DNA of 64,000 nt from Candidatus Tectomicrobia bacterium. GTDB lineage: Bacteria; UBA8248. Made by a program: the position numbers and the translations under genes. The notes below the pieces were generated by a model. That model worked only from the letters and a program-made list of their open reading frames with translations. It was not told where the DNA came from and made no database searches. Shown piece by piece: positions 1,813 through 61,984 of the stretch. The number at the start of each line of letters is the position of its first letter. Within the stretch, counting starts at the first letter, position 1. The DNA lies in assembly GCA_016192135.1 (NCBI GenBank), contig JACPUR010000013.1, positions 62,001-126,000 of the forward strand, in the 5' to 3' direction.

Positions 1813-2640
1813 ATGAGGCTGTTCCTGGCGCTCGTCCTCACGCTCGTGGCCGCGGCCGCGGGCGCCCAGGGGCTCAAGGTGGAGAACCCGGCCCATCCGG
1901 TGGCCGTCATCAAGACCAGCCAAGGGGACATCCACCTGGAGCTCTTCCCCCAGGAGGCCCCCCAGACGGTCGAAAACTTCGTCGGGCTGGCGGAGGGCAC
2001 CAAGGAGTTCACGGACGCGAAGACGGGCCAGAAGGCGAAGCGGCCCTTCTACGACGGGCTGGTCTTTCATCGCGTGATGAAGGACTTCATGATCCAGGGC
2101 GGGGACCCCAACGGCAACGGCACGGGCGGGCCGGGCTACCGGCTCAAGGACGAGATCAACGCCGACGCGCTGGGCCTCGGGAAGATAAGCGCCGTCGACA
2201 AGGAGGGGAACCTGCACCCTCACCTCCTCGTGCGCTCCCAGGAGGACTTCAACCAGATGATCCTCATCCCCCTCCTGCGCAAGCTGAAGATCGCCAAGCA
2301 GGAGGAGTTCGAGAAGCGGAAGGACGAGATTCAGAAGGAGCTGAACCAGCTTACCATCAAGGCCACCTACGAGAACATGGGCTACCAGTACAGCCCGAAG
2401 CTCAAGTCGCGGCAGCCCTCCAAGGGCGTCATCGCCATGGCCAACGCCGGCCCGGACACCAACGGCTCGCAGTTCTTCATCAACCTGGCCGACACCCCCT
2501 GGCTCGCCGGCAAGCACACCGTCTTCGGCAAGGTGGTCCAGGGGATGGAGGTGGTGGAGAAGATCGGGGCGGTGGAGGTCGGCCCGAACAGCGCCCCGAA
2601 GCAGGAGGTGAAGATTCTCTCCGTGCGCGTCAAGAAATAG
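1813..2640 (+). CDS. Secreted cyclophilin-type peptidyl-prolyl isomerase with a charged insertion
   Basis: A 275-residue protein with a cleavable signal peptide (about residues 1-18, ending AAAAGA), so it should act in the periplasm. The cyclophilin core is clear: FHRV at 85-88, MIQGGDP at 93-99, the NGSQFFI strand near 217-223 and PWLAGKHTVFG near 229-239. That includes the catalytic arginine of FHRV and the usual Trp and His. Unusually, about 80 residues rich in Lys, Glu and Gln (about 121-203) separate the two halves of the domain. Ordinary bacterial cyclophilins are about 165-190 residues. The ATG at 1813 follows GGAGGC. Role inferred: proline isomerisation during folding of exported proteins. 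Confidence 0.9.
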   Translation: MRLFLALVLTLVAAAAGAQGLKVENPAHPVAVIKTSQGDIHLELFPQEAPQTVENFVGLAEGTKEFTDAKTGQKAKRPFYDGLVFHRVMKDFMIQGGDPNGNGTGGPGYRLKDEINADALGLGKISAVDKEGNLHPHLLVRSQEDFNQMILIPLLRKLKIAKQEEFEKRKDEIQKELNQLTIKATYENMGYQYSPKLKSRQPSKGVIAMANAGPDTNGSQFFINLADTPWLAGKHTVFGKVVQGMEVVEKIGAVEVGPNSAPKQEVKILSVRVKK

Positions 2641-2697
2641 GGGCGGAAGCCGGGAGCGCGCCCTTCGTCATCCGCCCGCTCATCCAGGAGAATCTTC

Positions 2698-3066
2698 GTG
2701 AAGCGGCGGGTCCTGCTGGTGGATGACGAGGAAGACGCCCTGGATATCCTGTCGGATATCATCTCCAGGATGGGTTACGAGGTCCACACCGCCGCCACCG
2801 GCCGGTTGGCGCTGGAGAAAGCCGGGCAAGCCAAGCCTGATCTGATGCTCCTGGATCTGCAGATGCCGGACATGAACGGGTTCGAGGTGCTGAAGGCGAT
2901 CCGGGAGGCCGGCATGGACTTCCCCGTCGTGATGCTGACGGCCCGCCGCGAGGAGCAGGCGGTGGAAGCGGCCCGCGCTCTCGGCGTCTCGACATACCTT
3001 ACGAAGCCCGTCCAATTCGGCGAGATCAAGAGAGTCCTCGCCTCCGCGCTCGGGGAGGCTTCCTGA
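2698..3066 (+). CDS. Single-domain response regulator (receiver only)
   Basis: A 122-residue CheY-like receiver with no output domain. It has the acidic pair D9-D10 near the N-terminus, the phospho-acceptor D53 in MLLDLQMP, a threonine in MLTAR and the conserved lysine in LTKPV. It starts with GTG 57 bases after the cyclophilin stop and could be co-transcribed with it. No histidine kinase is adjacent, so the partner is unknown. It should act as a cytoplasmic phosphorylation-controlled switch through protein contact rather than by DNA binding. Confidence 0.88.
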   Translation: MKRRVLLVDDEEDALDILSDIISRMGYEVHTAATGRLALEKAGQAKPDLMLLDLQMPDMNGFEVLKAIREAGMDFPVVMLTARREEQAVEAARALGVSTYLTKPVQFGEIKRVLASALGEAS

Positions 3067-3121
3067 GCCCGCCGCGCATCTCCCGCCGGCCCTCCCGCGA
3101 GCGGGGGAGCGCCCCCCGTCC

Positions 3122-3829
3122 TTACCGGCGGGAGGCTGCCTTCCGCAGGGAGGCGAGTTGCGCCCGGGCGCTCTCGGCCGCCTGCGCGTCCCCCATCTCC
3201 GCATAGACGACTGCGAGGTTCTCGAGGGCGAGAGCGATGGCCGGAGCATCCGGCTTGGGCTGCCGTTGGAGGATCGCGAGCGAACGGCGGAAGAGCGAGA
3301 CCGCCTCGGCATAATCGCGTTCGGCGAAGCGCAGGCCGGCGAGGTTGGCCAGGGCCGCGGCGGCCTCGGGACCCGCCTCTCCGGGGTGCTTCTCGAAGAT
3401 CGCCACGGCCCGACGGTAGAAGGGCTCCGCCTCCCGGAGCCTCTCCCGGGACTCATGGAGCCAGCCCAGGTTGTTCAGGACCATCGCCACGTGGGGGTGA
3501 TTCTCTCCGTCCGCCCGCTCGTAGATCCGGAGCGAGTCCCGGAGGAGGCGCTCCGCCTCCCCCGCCTCCTTCTGGGCGAGGCGGATCATGGCGAGGTCGT
3601 TCAAGATGGAGCCCACCAGGGGGTGGCCCGGCCCGAGCTTGCGCCGGTAGTCCTCCAGCACCTCCTCCCCCAGCGCGAATGCCTTGACGAGCTCGCGGCT
3701 CTGGTAGAGCCGTACCACCACCGTGTGGGCGGGGGAGGGAGAAAAGTGCGCCCCGGGGCCGTCGGCCTGCGCCGAAGGCGCCGTCAGGGCGGCCATGAGA
3801 ACCGCAGCCCCCAGCCGCCGCAGGATCAT
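3122..3829 (-). CDS. Secreted tetratricopeptide-repeat protein (kinesin light chain type)
   Basis: About 235 residues starting at the ATG at 3829, with a signal peptide of about 22 residues ending in PSAQA. An in-frame ATG 33 bases further upstream (3862) is possible but would put a poor sequence before the signal. The body holds about four TPR units of the 42-residue kinesin-light-chain type, seen as repeated A.I.NNLG/LA....E..YAEAE..YRRAL.I patterns. Such repeats form a protein-binding superhelix; the partner is unknown. It lies just downstream of a small secreted Ala/Lys-rich protein on the same strand (gap 54 bases) and may share its transcript. Confidence 0.75.
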   Translation of the reverse strand: MILRRLGAAVLMAALTAPSAQADGPGAHFSPSPAHTVVVRLYQSRELVKAFALGEEVLEDYRRKLGPGHPLVGSILNDLAMIRLAQKEAGEAERLLRDSLRIYERADGENHPHVAMVLNNLGWLHESRERLREAEPFYRRAVAIFEKHPGEAGPEAAAALANLAGLRFAERDYAEAVSLFRRSLAILQRQPKPDAPAIALALENLAVVYAEMGDAQAAESARAQLASLRKAASRR

Positions 3830-7451: not shown

Positions 7452-7588
7452 GGCGCGCGGCGCGGTCGACCGGCCAGGCGACCTCGTGGCACCCGGGAGT
7501 ATCTGCTTACCGCTGCTTCCTTCCGGATCTGACGGAGTTCACAGGCTCCCGCCGCACGAGACCCGGCCGGCCGGCCGCGCCGCGCGCC
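7452..7588 (-). ncRNA. ffs: Bacterial small signal recognition particle RNA (4.5S-type)
   Basis: The minus strand carries the diagnostic SRP RNA apical domain: the asymmetric loop motif GTCAGATCCGGAAGGAAGCAGC, including the GGAA tetraloop region (AGATCCGGAAGGAAGCAGC near 7512-7532). Flanking arms pair over a long distance: GCGCGCGGCGCGGCC near the 7588 end with its complement near 7452, and CTCGTG with CACGAG nearer the core. The extended stem gives about 137 nt, somewhat longer than the usual bacterial small form, and the exact ends are uncertain by 10-20 bases. Position immediately upstream of dnaX is the common bacterial arrangement. It scaffolds Ffh and FtsY for co-translational membrane targeting. 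Confidence 0.88.
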
Positions 7589-52163: not shown

Positions 52164-54203
52164 TCAGAACCAGCTCCACAGGAGACCCTCCGGCAGCGGC
52201 ATTTTGAGGACCCAGTCCATCAGCCCGTGGACAAACAAGAAACCGCTGCCCGAGAGGGCGAGGCTGAGGCCCCAGCCCTCACGTGCGCCCGCTTTCAGGT
52301 AAAGGAACATGACCAGCAAAACGCCGAACGCGAAGCCCAGGAACCAGATGCCGGCGAGCAAGCCGACAATCCAGCCCCAGATGGCCAAGGTGCGGCGCGC
52401 ACTCACGTCCGGCGTCGGCTCGGCGCCGGCGTGAGCCATGCTCTCTAGACTTTCACGGCCTTTCCGGCCGGTGAGGTCGAGACCGAACTGAACCAGCGCC
52501 ATCAAAAACCCCGGACCCCCGATGATCCAGGGAAACAGGCCGGCCCGGCCCGGGAAATCCAGGCTCATCCAGAGGCCGGTCGCGAAAAAGAGCGCCAGGA
52601 AAAGACTGAACGCCGCCTCCGGCGTGAAGCGCAGCCCTGTCCGCCCGTCCTGCGTGGCCCCCGGATTTTCGGAAACCCGCGCGAACCTTGGGAAGTAGGA
52701 ATCCCGGAACCGCCGTTGAAAGCGCCATTTCTGGAAGGCCGGATAAAGAATGCCCGCCAGCATGAGGACGAACAGGACCATCACCCCCGGACGCGTCATC
52801 CACTCCCATCCATAGCTGCTCAGGGAAAGGAACAGCCGGTTCTCGGCCAGCGGCCCCAGCACAAGGCCCAGGAGAAGGGGGGGCCGGGGCCAATCGAGCT
52901 TCACCATGGCCCAGCCCACTGCGCCGAAAATCAGCATGACCGCCATGTCCTCGAAGGCGTTCTTCTCGGCGAACGCCCCCAGGTAAATGAGAAACAGGAT
53001 GAAGGGGATGAGCAGGCTCCCCCGAACGAAGGTGATCTTGGCGAGATGCTCCAGGAAGAGGAAGCAAATGCCCACCGTGATCAAGTTCGAGATCACGATG
53101 AGCCAGACCATGGAAAAGGTCAGGCTCAGGTGGCCGCCGTTGGCCTCCGGGATCAGCATGGGAGGGCCCGGGACCAGGCCCTGGATCAGAAAGGCGCCGA
53201 GAAGGATGGCCGTGCTCAGGCTTCCGGGAACCCCGAAGGCGACGGTCGGCACCAAGGCTCCGCCCAGCGTGGCGTTGTTCGCCGCCCCCGGCCCGAGAAC
53301 CCCCTCGATGGCCCCCTTGCCCATCCGGCTCTTGTCGGCCACGCTCTGGGCGGCGTGGGCGTAGGCCGCCCATTGGGAAACGGAGCCGCCCATGCCCGGT
53401 ATGACGCCGATATAGGTCCCGATGGCACTGCACCGGAGGACGAGCCACCCGTGCCGGAAGGTGTCCTTCACACCCTCCATTACCCCTCCCAGCTTCTCCG
53501 CGTCGCGCCGTGCGATGCTCGTTCCCTGGACGGCGAGATCGATGGTTTCCGGGATGGCGAACAGCCCGAGGGTGACGGGGAGCAGGCCCACCCCGTCCCA
53601 GAGGAAAAGCTGGGAAAAGGTATAGCGCTCGATGGAGGCGGTCGCCTCCAGCCCCACCATGGCGAGAAGGAAGCCGGCGGCGCCGGCGATGAGCCCCTTG
53701 AGGACGGTCCGGCCCGAGAGGGCGGCGATCATGGTGGTGCCGAGGATGGCGAACATGAAGAGCTCGGGCGAGCCCACGGAGAGGACGAGGGGCTGCACGA
53801 TCGGGATGGCGAGAGCCAGGGCGAATGCGCCGAAGAGCGCGCCGATCAGCGAGCTCATCAGCACCGCGCCCAGGGCGCGGCCCGCCTCGCCGTTCTTCGC
53901 CATGGGATGCCCGTCCACGACCGTCGCCGACGCCGTCCCCTCCCCGGGCACGCCGAAGAGAATCGAGGTGATATCTCCGGTGGTGGCGGTGACGGAGACC
54001 ATGCCGAGGAGGAACGAGAAGGCCTCGACCGGCGTCATCCGGAAGATGAAGGGGAGCATCAGGGCGAGGGTCGTGGGCCCCCCCAGGCCGGGAAGAATCC
54101 CGACCGCGAACCCCACGGCGATGCCGATGAGCATGAGGCCGAACGCCGGCCAGCCGAATACCTGTGTGAAGCCGGTCAACGAGGCTTGTAGGATCTCGCC
54201 CAT
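52164..54203 (-). CDS. Tripartite tricarboxylate transporter permease, TctA-TctB fusion
   Basis: A 679-residue membrane protein. Residues 1-about 500 are TctA (GILPGLGGPTTLALMLPF, GVPGEGTASATVVDG and GVIPGMGGSVSQW, all family motifs). After a hydrophilic linker, residues about 525-679 add four more hydrophobic segments resembling TctB (FTPEAAFSLFLALFFATGLW and GFLFVHGLMDWVLKMPLP). In most systems TctB is a separate gene. It imports a carboxylate bound by the TctC-type protein encoded 72 bases upstream. The ligand is unknown. Confidence 0.9.
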   Translation of the reverse strand: MGEILQASLTGFTQVFGWPAFGLMLIGIAVGFAVGILPGLGGPTTLALMLPFIFRMTPVEAFSFLLGMVSVTATTGDITSILFGVPGEGTASATVVDGHPMAKNGEAGRALGAVLMSSLIGALFGAFALALAIPIVQPLVLSVGSPELFMFAILGTTMIAALSGRTVLKGLIAGAAGFLLAMVGLEATASIERYTFSQLFLWDGVGLLPVTLGLFAIPETIDLAVQGTSIARRDAEKLGGVMEGVKDTFRHGWLVLRCSAIGTYIGVIPGMGGSVSQWAAYAHAAQSVADKSRMGKGAIEGVLGPGAANNATLGGALVPTVAFGVPGSLSTAILLGAFLIQGLVPGPPMLIPEANGGHLSLTFSMVWLIVISNLITVGICFLFLEHLAKITFVRGSLLIPFILFLIYLGAFAEKNAFEDMAVMLIFGAVGWAMVKLDWPRPPLLLGLVLGPLAENRLFLSLSSYGWEWMTRPGVMVLFVLMLAGILYPAFQKWRFQRRFRDSYFPRFARVSENPGATQDGRTGLRFTPEAAFSLFLALFFATGLWMSLDFPGRAGLFPWIIGGPGFLMALVQFGLDLTGRKGRESLESMAHAGAEPTPDVSARRTLAIWGWIVGLLAGIWFLGFAFGVLLVMFLYLKAGAREGWGLSLALSGSGFLFVHGLMDWVLKMPLPEGLLWSWF

Positions 54204-54275
54204 CGGCGGCGCATCCCCGGAGAAAACGCGGGCGGCGCCCCATCCCTGGAGCGCCGCCCGGCGGAAAGTTTCAGG

Positions 54276-55319
54276 CTATTTCTTCTTGCCCGAGAAGACC
54301 GCCTTGAGCTTCGCCGCGAGCTCCGGCTTCATCGAGAGGAGAGCATTGAAGTTCTCCTTCACCTGCTCCGACGTCAGCGGGTCGGTATCGAGTTTCGCCT
54401 TCTCCGCTTCGGCGAGGAAATCCTTGTCCTTCGTGGCTTGAACGAATGCCTTGCGAAGGATCTCCACCTTGTCCTTGGGCGTCTTCGGCGGGAAGGTGAA
54501 GTAGCGGTTCACCATGCCGGGCGCGGCGATGCCGAGCCGGATGAGCTGCTTCGCCTCGTCGGTCTTGGCGAGGTCCAGGGCAAGGGGGATGTTCGGGAGG
54601 TCCTCCACCTTCTTCAGATGGGTCTGGAGGACCGGGACGATGTCCCCGCTCTTGATCTGCGCCGCCCAGGTGGATTTGATGGAATCCCAGGCGAAGCAGG
54701 TGCCGTCCACCTCGCCGCCGTCCACCGCCAGCCGGATCTTCGAGGTCCCCGTGTATCCGGGCACATGCTGGAGAGGCAGGCCCAGGGCCGCGTGGAGGAC
54801 CAGGGGAACGTCGTGGGCGCTCGAGCCCGGGCTGGTGCCGCCCACCTTGACCGGCTTCGGCGAGGACCGCCACTTCTCCAGGTTCGTGATGCCGCTCTTC
54901 TTCGAGAAGACGCAGACGGTCTTGTAGGGCGCCGGAGAGCCGATGACCTCGAACTGGCGCACATCGAACTGAACGCCCTTGCGCCCGAGGAGCTGCCCCA
55001 TCACCGTGGCCCCGCTCACCATGCCGATGGTCAACCCGTCCGGCTTGGCCGCCTTGGCGATATGATTGGCGGCCTTTAGGCTGCCCGCCCCCGGCATGTT
55101 CTCGACGACCAGGGTGGGCTTCCCGGGGATGTACTTGCCCAGATGGCGGGCCAGGGTGCGGGCCTGGACGTCGAACCCGCCGCCCGCGTCGAACCCCACG
55201 ATGACCCGGATGGTCTTGCCGGCGTAGAAATCCGCCGCCTGGGCCGGAGCGCCCGCGGAAGCGGCCAGAAGCGACAAGAGGAGCGCCCCGACGAACCGTC
55301 CCAAGGAGTTCCAACTCAT
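54276..55319 (-). CDS. TctC/Bug-family solute-binding protein
   Basis: A 347-residue periplasmic protein with a signal peptide of about 28 residues (ending APAQAA), then FYAGKTIRVIVGFDAGGGFD, the typical Bug-family first lobe. It also has the GTSPGSSAHD and PGYTGTSKIRLAVDGGEVDG regions. The start at 55319 is preceded by GAGAAGGAG-like sequence; the longer upstream frame lacks a signal. It delivers substrate to the fused TctA-TctB permease. Residues LTSEQVKENFNALLSM near the C-terminus are also family-typical. Confidence 0.92.
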   Translation of the reverse strand: MSWNSLGRFVGALLLSLLAASAGAPAQAADFYAGKTIRVIVGFDAGGGFDVQARTLARHLGKYIPGKPTLVVENMPGAGSLKAANHIAKAAKPDGLTIGMVSGATVMGQLLGRKGVQFDVRQFEVIGSPAPYKTVCVFSKKSGITNLEKWRSSPKPVKVGGTSPGSSAHDVPLVLHAALGLPLQHVPGYTGTSKIRLAVDGGEVDGTCFAWDSIKSTWAAQIKSGDIVPVLQTHLKKVEDLPNIPLALDLAKTDEAKQLIRLGIAAPGMVNRYFTFPPKTPKDKVEILRKAFVQATKDKDFLAEAEKAKLDTDPLTSEQVKENFNALLSMKPELAAKLKAVFSGKKK

Positions 55320-55456
55320 GCTTTTCTCCTTCTCAAGAAATCCGCGCCGGGCGGCCTCGCGCCGGCCCTGGCGGCTGGGACGCCGTCCAGGCGGCTCGGA
55401 TTTCCGCCGCAGCTTCCGCAAAACCTACCAAACGAACGTTTCGTCCAGATGACGGA

Positions 55457-57061
55457 CTAGCTCTTCTTTCGCGCCGGGGGCGCGGCCGCAAGGGACGAAC
55501 CGGAGAGGCAGTGCCTCCCGACGGAGTCCTGCCATATCTCGCCGCGGACATGGAGCACGCCCATCGCCCGCGCCACAGCCGGGAAGCCCTCCTCCTCGAA
55601 GCGCTCCGCCACCTGCGCGAAATACATGGGCTCCTTCTCGAGGGCGGCCCGGATGCGCCCGGCCAGGGCCTCGACCCCGGCCTTCGTCCACTCGCCCGGC
55701 CGGGAGGCGGAGGGCTCCGCACTTCCGTTCAGATAATCTTCGAGCTTCAGGTGCTCCGAATGCGCGTAGGTGATGCGGTGATAGCGCTCGCGGGGCACGT
55801 CCACGGGGATGGTCGCGTCGATGCCGCACTTGGCCGTGGTGGGGATCCAGCCCGGGGTGGGGGGCAGGCTGGGGTCGAGCGGCTTGGAGCGGGCGTTCGA
55901 GATGATCACGAGGTCACGGTCGGCCTGGACGCGCGTGGCGATGGCCCATTCCACGTCCATCGGGTCGAACACGTCGATGTCGTCGTCCACGACCACCACA
56001 TGCTTCATGTCGCCGATCGAGAGGGCGGCCATGATGGCGTTCTTCCCGTCCCCCGCCTGGCCCTTGATGGCGATAACGGCGTGCCAGTGGCAGCAGCCGC
56101 CGGGCGTCACATTGATGGCCTTCGCCTGGACGCCCGCCTCCTTCAGCGCGCGCCGGAGCATGGCCTGGAAGCCGTGCTCCTTCAGCCAGATGTTCTCCCA
56201 TGGCATGTGGAGCGCGTAGTAGATGGCGTCCCTGCGGCGGGAGATCGCCTTCACCCGCACATAGGGGTTCCAGTGGAGCCCGCCCATGAGGCGGGTGAAC
56301 TCGCCGAAGCGGCCCTCGGGCTTGGTCCACCCGGTGGGCAGGATCTCCGCCTCGAGCACGATTTCGCTGTCCGCGATGCAGGGCACGTCCACAGTCTCGC
56401 AGGGTGCGAGCCGCACCGCCTCGCCCCGTATGCCTCCGGCGATGCCCATCTCGTCCGTCCCGATGGGGGCCTTGTAGAGGGAGGCGATCATCTCGATGGG
56501 ATGGGTGCCGATGTTGATGGAGATGGGGAGGGGGCGGTTCTCGGCGAGCGCCCGCTCGGCGTACCGCCTCAGGTTGTTCGGGGTGACGATGTCGATGCCG
56601 GTGAGATTCCGCTCCTTCACCTGGAAGCGGTAGGTCCCGGCGTTGAGGCCGTGCTCGGGGTCCACCGCGAGGGTCACGCCGGCGGTGATCATGGGGCCGC
56701 CGTCGAAGACGGAGCAGATGGGGACGGGAAGGCTGAACAGGTCCACTTCGTCCCCCTCCATGAACACTTCCCGCTCGGCCCCGGCCTCGATGAGCGCCGG
56801 CGGAATGGGATTGTCGAGCGCCTGGCGAAGCTTGTGTTCCGTCTCGGAGTAATCGCATTTCATGGAGATGGCGATGCGCTTGCGGCTGTTCGTCAGCCCG
56901 GAGAGGACCGGCATGTCGTACCCGATCACCTTGTGGAACAAGAGCGCCTTGGGCGATTTGTCCACCAGGGCGGCGATGTAGCGGATATCCACGGGCTTGT
57001 GGATCTCGACGAGCTCCCCCGCGGCGCGGAGGTCATCGAGAAAGCTGCGGAGGCCGGACAT
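55457..57061 (-). CDS. UbiD-family decarboxylase
   Basis: A 534-residue UbiD protein, longer than the other two here because of a C-terminal extension of about 70 residues. The cofactor-metal region includes ITAGVTLAVDPEHGLN near 135 and the Glu-rich motif KPEGRFGEFTRLMGG near 250, with Arg in place of the usual Pro. DDDIDVFDPMDVEWAIATR is near 385. The start at 57061 gives the family N-terminus SGLRSFLDDLRAAGELVEI. It lies 137 bases upstream of the TctC-like gene in the same direction. A related carboxylic acid may be both the transported and decarboxylated substrate. Confidence 0.89.
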   Translation of the reverse strand: MSGLRSFLDDLRAAGELVEIHKPVDIRYIAALVDKSPKALLFHKVIGYDMPVLSGLTNSRKRIAISMKCDYSETEHKLRQALDNPIPPALIEAGAEREVFMEGDEVDLFSLPVPICSVFDGGPMITAGVTLAVDPEHGLNAGTYRFQVKERNLTGIDIVTPNNLRRYAERALAENRPLPISINIGTHPIEMIASLYKAPIGTDEMGIAGGIRGEAVRLAPCETVDVPCIADSEIVLEAEILPTGWTKPEGRFGEFTRLMGGLHWNPYVRVKAISRRRDAIYYALHMPWENIWLKEHGFQAMLRRALKEAGVQAKAINVTPGGCCHWHAVIAIKGQAGDGKNAIMAALSIGDMKHVVVVDDDIDVFDPMDVEWAIATRVQADRDLVIISNARSKPLDPSLPPTPGWIPTTAKCGIDATIPVDVPRERYHRITYAHSEHLKLEDYLNGSAEPSASRPGEWTKAGVEALAGRIRAALEKEPMYFAQVAERFEEEGFPAVARAMGVLHVRGEIWQDSVGRHCLSGSSLAAAPPARKKS

Positions 57062-57224
57062 GGAGCCAATCTCCCAACGGTGAATGCCAGAAGGGCAGCC
57101 TGGGTGACGGGGATTCGCAAGTGATTCCAGGGGCAAACGATAATCTGTGACGATGGAAAACTGTAGCATTTCTCGCCGGGCGGTTCAACGACACGCAATC
57201 CCGCCGGGAGAGGGCGGCCGAGGG

Positions 57225-58217
57225 CTACTTCGCCTTTTCCCCGAAAGGCATCTCGAGCCCCAGGCCCTTCTCGTTCGCCAGCCGGTAGATCCAATGGCCT
57301 ATCCCGGCGTCGAGGATGCCCATGCCCGGAGACTCGTACAGGAGGATTTCATCGGTGCTCCGCCGGCCGGGCTTCTTGCCCGCCACGACATCGCAGAACT
57401 CGGCCGCGACGTCCTCGGGCTTGAACCTGCCGCTGGCCAGGAGGCCGGGGAAAGGCATCCGGGGCGGGGTGTCCCCGAGCACCTGCTCGGAGCCCGAGAG
57501 GAACACCCGCGAGCGCAGCACCGTCTCCTCGTCGAACTCCCCCGGGGCCAGCGACATGAACAGCACGCCCGGCTCCAGCCAGCTCCCCTCGAAGACGATG
57601 GTGTTCCCCGTGGTGGCCGTGATCATGATGTCGGCCCCCCTGACGGCCTCCCGGCCCGAGGCCGCGGGCGCCACCTCGATGGAAAGCTCCCGCTCCATCT
57701 CTTTCCGGAAGTCCCGCACGTTCTCGGGATTGCGGCTATATACCTGCACGCGCCGAATGGGCCGGACGGCCCGGACGGCCCGAGTCATGCCGCGCGCGTA
57801 GCGCCCCGTGCCGATGATGCCCAGGGTGCTCGACTCCGGGCGGGAGAGATACTTGGCGGCGACGCCGTAGGGCGCGGCGGTGCGGATGGCGTGGAGGTGG
57901 TAATCGGAAATGATCGCCACCATCTCCATGTCTTCCCAGGCGAACAGGCAGATGATCTCCGAGCGGTTGGTCCCCTTGTAGCCGGAATAGACGCGGACCG
58001 CGGCCACTCCCATGTCCGGGACCATCCCCGGCAGGATCCGGATGTTATGCCAGAGATGCCCCGGGAACTTCGGATGCGCCATCGTGTAGCGCTTCAGATG
58101 GTAGGTGCTGCCCTCGGATTGCTGCCGGAGCACCTCTTCGACGACCTCGACCGATTCGAGGCCCGCATCGCGGCCCTCCAGCACCTGGATGACATCGTTT
58201 TCCGAGAGTATTCGCAT
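57225..58217 (-). CDS. Ornithine cyclodeaminase / mu-crystallin family protein
   Basis: About 330 residues with the family fold: the N-terminal VLEGRDAGLESVEVVEEVL and HLKRYTMAHP, the NAD(P)-binding motif GIIGTGRYARGM near 135, and SLAPGEFDEETVLRSRVF in the second half. Two ATG codons six bases apart are possible (58223 and 58217); GGGGAG is correctly spaced only from the second. Family members are cyclodeaminases, imine reductases or amino-acid dehydrogenases. The conserved Asp used by true ornithine cyclodeaminase could not be assigned with confidence. It precedes the UbiD gene by 163 bases on the same strand. Confidence 0.85.
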   Translation of the reverse strand: MRILSENDVIQVLEGRDAGLESVEVVEEVLRQQSEGSTYHLKRYTMAHPKFPGHLWHNIRILPGMVPDMGVAAVRVYSGYKGTNRSEIICLFAWEDMEMVAIISDYHLHAIRTAAPYGVAAKYLSRPESSTLGIIGTGRYARGMTRAVRAVRPIRRVQVYSRNPENVRDFRKEMERELSIEVAPAASGREAVRGADIMITATTGNTIVFEGSWLEPGVLFMSLAPGEFDEETVLRSRVFLSGSEQVLGDTPPRMPFPGLLASGRFKPEDVAAEFCDVVAGKKPGRRSTDEILLYESPGMGILDAGIGHWIYRLANEKGLGLEMPFGEKAK

Positions 58218-58442
58218 CCGCATCTCCCCGCGGGCCGCTTCAGCCGAGCCGAGTCCGCCGTTCCGGATCCTGATCTTGAATGTACGCGGGACGGGACGGC
58301 ATCTTCTTCCTTGTCCGGCGGAAGATCAATGGGCCTGTGCGCGCCCGGCGCGGCATGCGCGATCCGCCCCGCGCGCGTTGAATCGGCGGCGGAGAGTGCC
58401 TAGAATCCCGCCCGGGGCCCTTTCAACCTCTGGGACAACCGC

Positions 58443-60386
58443 ATGCCGAAGCTCGACTACGAAGCGCTGGGATTCCGTTCGGGGCTGGAAGTCCATTACC
58501 AGCTCCTGACGGATCGGAAGCTCTTCTGCAGCTGCCCCGCCGGGCGGTACTCCACCCGCTTCGACGCCGAGATCCTCCGCCACATGCGGCCCACTCTCTC
58601 CGAGTTGGGCGAGTACGATGGCACCGCGCTGATGGAGTTCAAGACCCGCAAGGAGGTCGTCTACCAGATCCGCAACGACTCGGTCTGCACATACGAGATG
58701 GACGACACGCCCCCCTTCCCGCCGGATCCGCATGCGGTCGATACCGCCCTGGAGGTCGCCCTCCTGCTCGGCTGCAGCGTCGTGGGCGAGATCCACATCA
58801 CCCGGAAGCAATACCTGGACGGCAGCATCCCCACCGGCTTCCAGCGCACAGCCATCGTAGGGGTCGAGGGGAAGATTGTCCTTTTCTCCGGACAGGAGCT
58901 CCCGGTCGTCCAGGTCAGCTTCGAGGAGGATTCCTGCCGGGAGGTGAAGGACGAGGGGCACCGGATCGTCTTCCGGACCGACCGGCTGGGGATGCCCCTG
59001 GTGGAAGTGGTGACCTACCCGGAGATGCGGTCCCCCCGCGAGGTCGCCGAGGCGGGACGGCGGATCGGCCAGCTCCTGCGCTCCACGGGCAAGGTGAGGC
59101 GCGGGCTCGGCTCCGTGCGCCAGGACGTGAACGTGAGCATCGAGGGCGCCCCCCGTATCGAGATCAAGGGCGTCCCCCGCCTCCAGGCCTTCGAGCGCCT
59201 CACGCACAACGAGGCCCTGCGCCAGAAGGGCCTCCTCGAGATCCGGGAGCGGCTCCGGGGGCGCGGCCTGAGCGCCGATAAGCTGAACGTCACGTCCGTC
59301 CCCGCCCCGCCGGAATCGCTGGACCACCCCGTCCTCCAGAAGGCCCTCGGCCAGGGGAAAAAGGCGCGGGTAGTCCGCATCGCGGGCTTCGGGGACGTGA
59401 TGGCCTGGCCCCTCCAGGAGGATCCCCGCGGGGAGGAGGTCCCCTTCCTGCGGGAGCTGACGGGCCGCGTCCGGGTCATCGCTTGCTTGGACGCGCCGCC
59501 CATCCTTTTCTGCCGGGAGGCCCATGACCCCCGCCATCCGGAGCGGCTGGGCGGCCCCTGCTGGGAGGCGGCGGCCCGGGCGGCCGGCGCCGCGCCCGGC
59601 GACGCCCTGCTGATCGCCTGGGGAACGGACGGGGATCTCGACACCGCCGTCCAGGAGATCGCCATACGTTGCCGGGAGGCGGCCGAGGGCATCCCGCAGG
59701 AGACGCGCCAGGCGCTGAAGGACGGCACCACCGATTTCGAGCGCATCCTGCCCGGGCCCGACCGGATGTACCCGGACACGGACCTCCCCCTCATTCCGGT
59801 CGAAGAGGAGCGCCTGGCCCGCCTCGAGGCGGAACTGCCGGTCACGCCCTGGCGGTGGGAGGAGGATTTCCGCGCCTGGAAGATTCCCGAGGACGCCATC
59901 GAGGCCTTGGTCGATTCCCCCCGCGCCCATCTGCTGGACCGGATCGTCCGGGAGACGGGGGCGCCCCCCGTCCTCGCCGCCACCGCCCTCACCCGCGATG
60001 CCAAGGCGCTCGGCAGGCGGAAGATCGACCTCGGCCGCTTGGGAGAAGACCGGTGGGTGGACCTCTTCCGCTCGCTGCAGGCGGGAACCTTCGGCCGGGA
60101 GGCCATCCCCGTCCTGCTAGAGGCGCTGGCCGCCTCTCCTGGCCTGACGGCCGCTCAAGCCGCCGAACAAGCCGGGCTCCGCGTGCTGGCGGACAGCGAA
60201 CTGGGCGAGATTGTGGACGAGGCCATCGCCGCGCATGGGGAAGACCCCATGCACAACCCCGGCGAGGCTAACCGGCTCAGGTACTTGATGGGGCTTCTCA
60301 TGAAGCGGGTGAGAGGAAAGCGGGACGGGAATGAGATTCTCGCCCTTCTCCAGAAGAGGTGGAAGGCGAGCCGGCCCTCGGCCTAA
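58443..60386 (+). CDS. gatE: Archaeal-type Glu-tRNA(Gln) amidotransferase subunit E
   Basis: A 647-residue protein. It begins YEALGFRSGLEVHYQLLTDRKLFCSC, the GatB/GatE cradle start, with the GatE-type longer lead. An inserted GAD domain (about 290-400), absent from bacterial GatB, is present. The diagnostic archaeal GatE segment IPQETRQALKDGTTDFERIL with PGPDRMYPDTDLPLIPV follows at about 420-460. A C-terminal helical plus YqeY-like tail region completes it. With GatD it should amidate Glu-tRNA(Gln). Its stop is three bases from the stop of gatD on the other strand. A weak ribosome site precedes the ATG. Confidence 0.92.
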   Translation: MPKLDYEALGFRSGLEVHYQLLTDRKLFCSCPAGRYSTRFDAEILRHMRPTLSELGEYDGTALMEFKTRKEVVYQIRNDSVCTYEMDDTPPFPPDPHAVDTALEVALLLGCSVVGEIHITRKQYLDGSIPTGFQRTAIVGVEGKIVLFSGQELPVVQVSFEEDSCREVKDEGHRIVFRTDRLGMPLVEVVTYPEMRSPREVAEAGRRIGQLLRSTGKVRRGLGSVRQDVNVSIEGAPRIEIKGVPRLQAFERLTHNEALRQKGLLEIRERLRGRGLSADKLNVTSVPAPPESLDHPVLQKALGQGKKARVVRIAGFGDVMAWPLQEDPRGEEVPFLRELTGRVRVIACLDAPPILFCREAHDPRHPERLGGPCWEAAARAAGAAPGDALLIAWGTDGDLDTAVQEIAIRCREAAEGIPQETRQALKDGTTDFERILPGPDRMYPDTDLPLIPVEEERLARLEAELPVTPWRWEEDFRAWKIPEDAIEALVDSPRAHLLDRIVRETGAPPVLAATALTRDAKALGRRKIDLGRLGEDRWVDLFRSLQAGTFGREAIPVLLEALAASPGLTAAQAAEQAGLRVLADSELGEIVDEAIAAHGEDPMHNPGEANRLRYLMGLLMKRVRGKRDGNEILALLQKRWKASRPSA

Positions 60387-60389
60387 TGA

Positions 60390-61784
60390 TTACTTCAAGT
60401 ACCGCCCGAGGGCGCTGTCCACCTCGGGCAGCCCTCCCTGGAGCACCAGATATCCGTTGGGCGGCTCGCGGTCGGTCATGTCGTCCGAGATCCGCGTCAG
60501 CATGATCCGGTTTACTTCCTCGATGTCCTTCGTCTGCCCGAGCGCCCAGCCGAGCTTCACGTAGGCGACCTCCGGCAGCATGTTCGCGAGCGGGACGACG
60601 CCGCGCGCCATCATGTCGCGCCCCGTGTCGTATACGTACATCTGCGCGTATCCCCAGAGGGTCTGGACGGTCATGTACATGGGGACCCCGGCCTTCTGGG
60701 CCTTCTCCAGAGCCGGATAGAGCGGCTTGTTGACGTGGCCGAGCCCCGTGCCGGCGATGACGATGCCCTTGTAGCCGTTGTCGATGAGCGCCTCCAGGAC
60801 GTCGGGCTGCATGTTCGGGTAGTAGTAGAGAATCGCGACTTTCTCCTCGAATCGCGTCTCGAGCTTCACGCTCCGGTCCCGCCGCCTCGGTTTCCAGTCC
60901 GGCTTGATGGGGGTGACGGTATCGCCCTGCACCCGGGCCAGCGGAACGTCGCTCAGCGTCCGGAAAGTGGAGCGGTAGCTGCTGTGCATCTTCCGCACCC
61001 GGACGCCCCGGTGCAGGAGGCCGTACAGGTCGCTCGTGGGACCGAACATGCAGACCATCACTTCGGCGATGGGGCCCCTCGCCGCCGCGTTCGTCGCATG
61101 GATGAGATTGAGGGCGGCGTCGGAGCTGGGCCTGTCGCTGGACCGCTGCGAGCCCACCATCACGATCGGCACGGGCGGGTCCTGCACCATAAAAGTGAGG
61201 GCCGCGGCGGTGTAGTGCATGGTGTCGGTGCCGTGACCCACGACGATGCCGTCCACGCCGCTCTCGATCTCGCGCGCGATGGCCCGGGCCGTCCCGACCC
61301 AATGCTCGGGGCCGATGTTCTCGCTGAACACGCCGTACAGCTTGATGGTCTTGAGGTTGCAGATGTCGGCGAGCTCAGGCACGGCGCCGTACAATTCCCC
61401 CGGGGAGAAGGCGGGGATGACGGCGCCCGTCCGGTAGTCCAGCCGGCTGGCGATGGTTCCCCCGGTGCCGAGGAGGGTCACGTTCGGCTTCGCCGAATCG
61501 AAGGGGAACTCCTTCTCGGGAATCTGGTAATGGGCCTCCCGCCGCCCGATCTCCCGGATGGCCAGGACGTTGTCCGCCTTGATACCGACGTTGTAGCCGG
61601 TCACGAGCTTCAGGACGATGTGCTTATCATCCGCCGTCTCGGAGCGCGGAAGAACGATTCCACGGAACTTGCCGCGCGTCGTCTCGGCCTCGACCTCGCT
61701 CCAGACGCTGGCCTGGAACGACTTGAGCACCTCCCGGGCGCGGCCGCGGTAGCCCTTCAGGGAATCCGGCGGGGTCGCATTCAT
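60390..61784 (-). CDS. gatD: Archaeal-type Glu-tRNA(Gln) amidotransferase subunit D (asparaginase-fold)
   Basis: A 464-residue protein. The N-terminal domain (about 10-80; RGIVLPRSE and LKLVTGYNVGI) is the small beta domain unique to GatD and absent from free asparaginases. The asparaginase domain has all four catalytic residues at family spacing: Thr110 (TGGTIAS), Thr186 and Asp187 (HGTDTMHYT) and Lys265 (VRVRKMHSS). GSQRSSDRPSSDA is another GatD signature. It hydrolyses glutamine to supply ammonia to GatE. The ATG at 61784 has GGAGG upstream. It is convergent with gatE. Confidence 0.93.
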   Translation of the reverse strand: MNATPPDSLKGYRGRAREVLKSFQASVWSEVEAETTRGKFRGIVLPRSETADDKHIVLKLVTGYNVGIKADNVLAIREIGRREAHYQIPEKEFPFDSAKPNVTLLGTGGTIASRLDYRTGAVIPAFSPGELYGAVPELADICNLKTIKLYGVFSENIGPEHWVGTARAIAREIESGVDGIVVGHGTDTMHYTAAALTFMVQDPPVPIVMVGSQRSSDRPSSDAALNLIHATNAAARGPIAEVMVCMFGPTSDLYGLLHRGVRVRKMHSSYRSTFRTLSDVPLARVQGDTVTPIKPDWKPRRRDRSVKLETRFEEKVAILYYYPNMQPDVLEALIDNGYKGIVIAGTGLGHVNKPLYPALEKAQKAGVPMYMTVQTLWGYAQMYVYDTGRDMMARGVVPLANMLPEVAYVKLGWALGQTKDIEEVNRIMLTRISDDMTDREPPNGYLVLQGGLPEVDSALGRYLK

Positions 61785-61984
61785 CGTCGCCTCCGCGGGG
61801 CCAGAGGAACGGTCGCAGGCCCTGCCATATCCGAAATCGCATGACACACCGCCGAACATACGTCATGCCGGCAAGGGAAGGCAATTCAAGGAGGAACCGA
61901 TTTTCGCCACGAGGCCGGGGATTCGATGAAAAATGTGGAGGTTGGTCAGGCGGTAGATCGTCCTAATTCTCGCTTCAGGTGCGC

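Follow-up and report, generated by a model that had tools for sequence, protein, structure and literature searches.

A GatDE-Type Amidotransferase Pair of a Candidatus Tectomicrobia Bacterium Falls in a Separate Clade Found in Many Bacterial Phyla

GatDE has been termed an archaeal signature protein; reviews of 2021–2022 state that it occurs only in archaea, and LUCA scenarios have been built on this exclusivity (PMC8762117, PMC9499178, PMC8007984). The window considered here, a 64,000-nucleotide stretch within a 277-kb contig of a Candidatus Tectomicrobia metagenome assembly, carries what an initial annotation described as a complete archaeal-type GatDE in a bacterial genome. The locus thus raises the questions of whether the pair is a genuine GatDE, how it relates to the archaeal enzyme, and what it would amidate. 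In archaea, labor is divided such that GatDE serves Gln-tRNA and GatCAB serves Asn-tRNA.

The gatE and gatD Genes and Their Locus

Both open reading frames are intact, and their products, referred to below as type 2, exceed the curated GatE and GatD cut-offs. gatE (58443..60386, + strand, 647 aa) is assigned on profile, structural, and domain evidence. It scores 427 bits with TIGR00134 (gatE_arch, cut-off 320) and 498 bits with NF003107 (cut-off 456), whereas the GatB models yield 67–148 bits, the best being 148 against a cut-off of 338. These scores, which exceed the curated cut-offs for GatE and all values for GatB, place the protein in the GatDE structural family. The cradle/kinase domain (residues 1–275 and 406–452) is interrupted by a putative GAD insert (about 276–405) and followed by a helical domain and a YqeY-like tRNA-binding tail (546–640), the latter recognized by PF02637 in 26 of 29 type-2 GatEs. 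The PGPDRMYPDTD signature is present as originally noted. The insert has the right place and length for GAD, although this GatE does not itself reach the Pfam GAD model, which 13 of the 29 type-2 GatEs do.

gatD (60390..61784, − strand) combines a GatD_N domain (PF18195, 49 bits, cut-off 25.7) with a type I asparaginase domain and passes both GatD models (500 bits with TIGR02153, cut-off 324). The ATG kept in relatives gives 464 aa; a second ATG lies upstream at 61859. The private N-terminal domain and the Thr-Thr-Asp-Lys catalytic set read from the sequence at the outset are confirmed, the latter as T110, T186, D187, and K265. However, the spacing is not identical to that of the methanogen enzyme, being 76 and 79 versus 76 and 77 in M. 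thermautotrophicus. The protein ends in a type-2-specific C-terminal tail, REPPNGYLVLQGGLPEV.

The best solved structures for both subunits are two archaeal GatDE complexes (1zq1 and 2d6f). AlphaFold models of GatE (pLDDT 84) and GatD (pLDDT 75) recover the same entries first by fold, and the GatE model aligns with the GatE of both, with a TM-score of 0.82 against 1zq1_C (by target). GatD shares its catalytic domain and fold with type I L-asparaginases but differs from them in having GatD_N, passing the GatD models, and being paired with gatE. Likewise, GatE shares the kinase-cradle core of GatB in GatCAB, yet it contains the putative GAD insert, falls far below the GatB cut-offs, and is paired with an asparaginase-type rather than an amidase-type (GatA) glutaminase. 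The pair is not a GatB accompanied by a free asparaginase.

The two genes are convergent, with the 3 bp at 60387..60389 separating their stop codons, as first described. The surroundings are bacterial: a small SRP RNA is found at 7469-7568, and genes for a UbiD-family decarboxylase and an ornithine-cyclodeaminase-family protein lie upstream of gatE. These two belong to a − strand group (52164-58223) that also encodes a putative tripartite tricarboxylate transporter, with TctC- and TctA-like ORFs lacking an NCBIfam match. The group is not beside gatDE in the sister genome G011, whose gene neighborhood is unlike that of the present genome.

Convergent adjacent gatE and gatD occur in four of the 18 genomes of the group (the present one, G011, G014, and G016), and two of these four contigs recur in the public set (Nitrospinota bacterium UBA8248 and PW3.concoct.202). 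The other 14 have GatB-level matches only, or none. This recurrence in four separate metagenome-assembled genomes (MAGs) of the family removes the initial doubt about a chimeric assembly, and the pair is indeed not a single archaeal transcript that was transferred recently. GC and GC3 of both genes match the host. Relative to G011, differences at codon positions 1, 2, and 3 amount to 0.23, 0.19, and 0.50 for GatE and 0.14, 0.10, and 0.41 for GatD; their concentration at third positions points to strong purifying selection on both subunits. A search of the neighborhoods for a third conserved gene beside gatDE returned lineage-specific synteny only. No relatives were found in viral contigs and no type-2 members on plasmids; the best plasmid matches listed comprise asparaginases, GatB, and a single GatE of haloarchaeal type.

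Two GatDE Clades and the Spread of Type 2

The pair had been described as archaeal-type GatDE, but in the trees it falls outside the canonical archaeal clade. In the GatE tree, a branch of 0.93 changes per site (SH-aLRT 100) splits canonical archaeal GatE, including both PDB entries, from a second clade (“type 2”) that comprises all bacterial sequences and some Thermoplasmatota. The GatD tree contains the same split (SH-aLRT 100). The trees are quick ones with SH-aLRT as the only support, and the canonical comparison set consists mainly of Thermoplasmatota and the two PDB entries. Because the two trees split alike, the subunits appear to co-evolve and to share one history; together with the gene pairing, this suggests that GatD and GatE would form a heterodimer. 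Three Thermoplasmatota archaea (G022, G078, and G087) harbor both kinds of GatE. When rooted on GatB, the GatE tree places canonical and type 2 as sisters. Nesting of type 2 inside archaeal GatE is not rejected by an AU test (p 0.22), and thus no claim is made on the direction of transfer. A GatD tree rooted on one asparaginase was discarded for its outgroup branch of about 10.

The two types have in common both subunits, domain order, fold, and the NCBIfam cut-offs passed, as well as 71 GatE and 74 GatD positions conserved at >90%, which include all catalytic ones. They differ in that type 2 is only about 33% (GatE) and 40–46% (GatD) identical to canonical GatDE and has its own residues near the catalytic motifs. 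In GatE, these invariants (T83, Y84, Q123, Y124, L125, I129, P130, C165, T179, and D445) are interleaved with the catalytic motifs, and T83, Y124, P130, and D445 are GatB-like; in GatD, they comprise W28 and the conserved C-terminal tail. Mean identity is higher within type 2 than within the canonical clade for GatD (73% versus 46%), GatE (52% versus 44%), and the GatE catalytic domain (68% versus 55%), whereas it is lower for the GatE tRNA-binding tail (22% versus 34%).

A pattern scan of 84,980 genomes matched 437 relatives. Among the best 80 of these, 78 are named bacteria, from Ignavibacteria, Bacteroidota, Kapabacteria, Aminicenantes, Acidobacteria, Calditrichota, KSB1, Latescibacterota, Planctomycetota, Zixibacteria, and others. 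Type-2 GatDE is therefore found in many bacterial phyla and is not an archaeal oddity in one bacterium. The canonical order is gatD-gatE, whereas type-2 genes are arranged gatE-gatD, divergently or convergently. Both genes lie on the retrieved stretch at 70 of these loci, where the arrangement is co-directional gatE-gatD in 65 cases, divergent in four, and convergent in one. In an Acidobacteria MAG (L120:8001-9905), the matched stretch of GatE contains one in-frame stop. Most genomes are MAGs, so that calls of absence are soft. No paper on bacterial GatDE was found in a literature search whose cover leaves out most subscription journals, and the separate branch is apparently undescribed.

Routes to Gln-tRNA in Type-2 Hosts

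GatDE had been proposed as possibly the lineage's normal route to Gln-tRNA. A role as the sole route is contradicted by the genome itself, which encodes GatA (625 bits) and GatB (641 bits), and by the relatives, most of which have no GatE above GatB level. Of the other genes that the initial annotation had suggested seeking, none was recovered: the GlnRS profile matches only GluRS (65 bits, cut-off 426), the AsnRS profile gives weak matches on two PF00152 genes, none over cut-off, and phmmer returns nothing convincing for GatC near gatA and gatB. The latter two share one neighborhood (L053:6288-10336, on contig C21). An isocitrate/isopropylmalate dehydrogenase superfamily gene, below every curated cut-off, lies between them in three family genomes (loci L053, the present one, and L054 and L055).

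A single GluRS of bacterial type (540 bits) is present, and with no match for GlnRS, Glu-tRNA(Gln) must be made in this organism. The GluRS gene adjoins tRNA-Gln(CUG). Both tRNA-Gln genes (CUG and UUG), located with RF00005 and ARAGORN, have U1-A72; a tRNA-Gln search pattern does not fit the tRNA-Gln of this phylum, whose variable loop is apparently shorter. In contrast, archaeal GatDE reads A1:U72 (PMC9499178), which counts against Glu-tRNA(Gln) as the GatDE substrate in this host.

Bacterial type-2 hosts differ likewise from those of canonical GatDE in having U1-A72 tRNA-Gln and further Gln-tRNA routes. GlnRS and/or GatB is present in 39 of 43 type-2 bacterial genomes: GlnRS occurs in 30 (14 with GatB, 16 without), and nine more have GatB without GlnRS. 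The remaining four have neither; three of these also lack any GluRS-class gene and are probably incomplete. In the 16 hosts with GlnRS and no GatB, Glu-tRNA(Gln) may hardly exist, which argues against a Glu-tRNA(Gln) role. The complete genome CP054675.1 (G023) has GlnRS (767 bits), GluRS (583 bits), and AsnRS (489 bits), with GatB not found, yet carries the GatE-GatD pair. Moreover, a second GluRS, the expected supplier of Glu-tRNA(Gln), is found in 10 of 21 hosts with GatB but in only one of the 18 that lack it (hand-read counts; Fisher p=0.005). It thus tracks GatB rather than GatDE, which also counts against this role.

Several observations concern glutamine decoding more generally. GlnRS is over cut-off in nine of 11 Thermoplasmatota genomes with type-2 GatE, although reviews describe archaea as lacking GlnRS. 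In one Thermoplasmatota MAG (G033, C36:1-4500, L279), a full GlnRS (1834-3519, +, 730 bits, TIGR00440) is flanked by tRNA-Gln(CUG) at 1740-1814 and tRNA-Gln(UUG) at 3578-3649, both with archaeal A1-U72 pairs. In several GlnRS-bearing bacteria (L314/L315, L316/L317, L318/L319, and L320/L321), the bodies of tRNA-Gln(UUG) and tRNA-Gln(CUG) are very different, the latter having a eukaryote/archaea-like D-arm, which suggests different origins. The GlnRS-containing KSB1 genome G020 (C273, L331) has an extra GluRS near tRNA-Gln(CUG), a hint of separate charging routes for the two isoacceptors. The idea of an isoacceptor reserved for GatDE was dropped, as the present genome lacks such a pattern.

Proposed Function and Alternatives

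On the basis of conserved active-site residues, the pair very probably performs GatDE chemistry, in which ammonia from Asn or Gln is passed to an activated acidic side chain. GatD would hydrolyze Asn or Gln via T110, T186, D187, and K265, and the ammonia would then move to GatE, which would phosphorylate and amidate the side chain of a glutamate (or aspartate), most likely esterified to tRNA. The likeliest substrate in this organism would be Glu-tRNA(Gln) from the single GluRS. As Glu-tRNA(Gln) must exist here, the simplest reading is that the pair assists GatCAB in an auxiliary, back-up, or clean-up capacity; its genes probably came from other bacteria, and it is probably dispensable. Such a functional heterodimer of a second subfamily, acting on Glu-tRNA(Gln) as an auxiliary to GatCAB, is given about an even chance. 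The retained YqeY-like tail and the catalytic residues common to both types speak for this reading. Conversely, the weaker conservation of the type-2 tail alongside a better conserved catalytic domain counts against it, as does the negative search for GatC near gatA and gatB.

A lesser but substantial possibility is that the substrate has changed, for example to a different aminoacyl-tRNA, to a modified tRNA, or to a carboxylate not borne by tRNA, making type 2 a dedicated enzyme of another pathway. This would account for its coexistence with complete Gln and Asn routes, as in CP054675.1, and with canonical GatDE in the three Thermoplasmatota archaea. The type-specific and partly GatB-like invariants among the catalytic motifs, the contrast between highly conserved GatD and GatE core and the divergent tail across phyla, and the missing second-GluRS partner point the same way. 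Nevertheless, the tRNA-binding domain persists, no conserved neighbor gene indicates another pathway, and positive evidence for any alternative substrate is lacking. The broader proposal that a cross-domain second GatDE subfamily has departed from Gln-tRNA supply and amidates another substrate is advanced tentatively. Assigning the main Gln-tRNA route to GatDE and only Asn-tRNA to GatCAB, on the archaeal pattern, would fit the missing GlnRS and the GluRS gene adjoining tRNA-Gln(CUG); it is improbable given the bacterial-type U1-A72 tRNA-Gln and the absence of full-length GatE from most of the 17 relatives, which have GatB. An artefact of assembly or binning is very improbable, as is a transferred gene pair in decay: the metagenomic origin and the GatE frameshifted in its contig in G014 would allow it, but the long contig, the four separate assemblies, the host-like GC and GC3, and the few changes at codon positions 1 and 2 oppose it.

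A widespread, separate bacterial GatDE clade undercuts the premise of archaeal exclusivity and makes it testable. The persistence of type 2 beside GlnRS, AsnRS, GatCAB, or canonical GatDE poses the concrete question of what is amidated. Automatic annotation as Glu-tRNA(Gln) amidotransferase may be wrong for many bacteria; if the substrate has indeed changed, the protein so annotated across many bacterial phyla would be a different enzyme.
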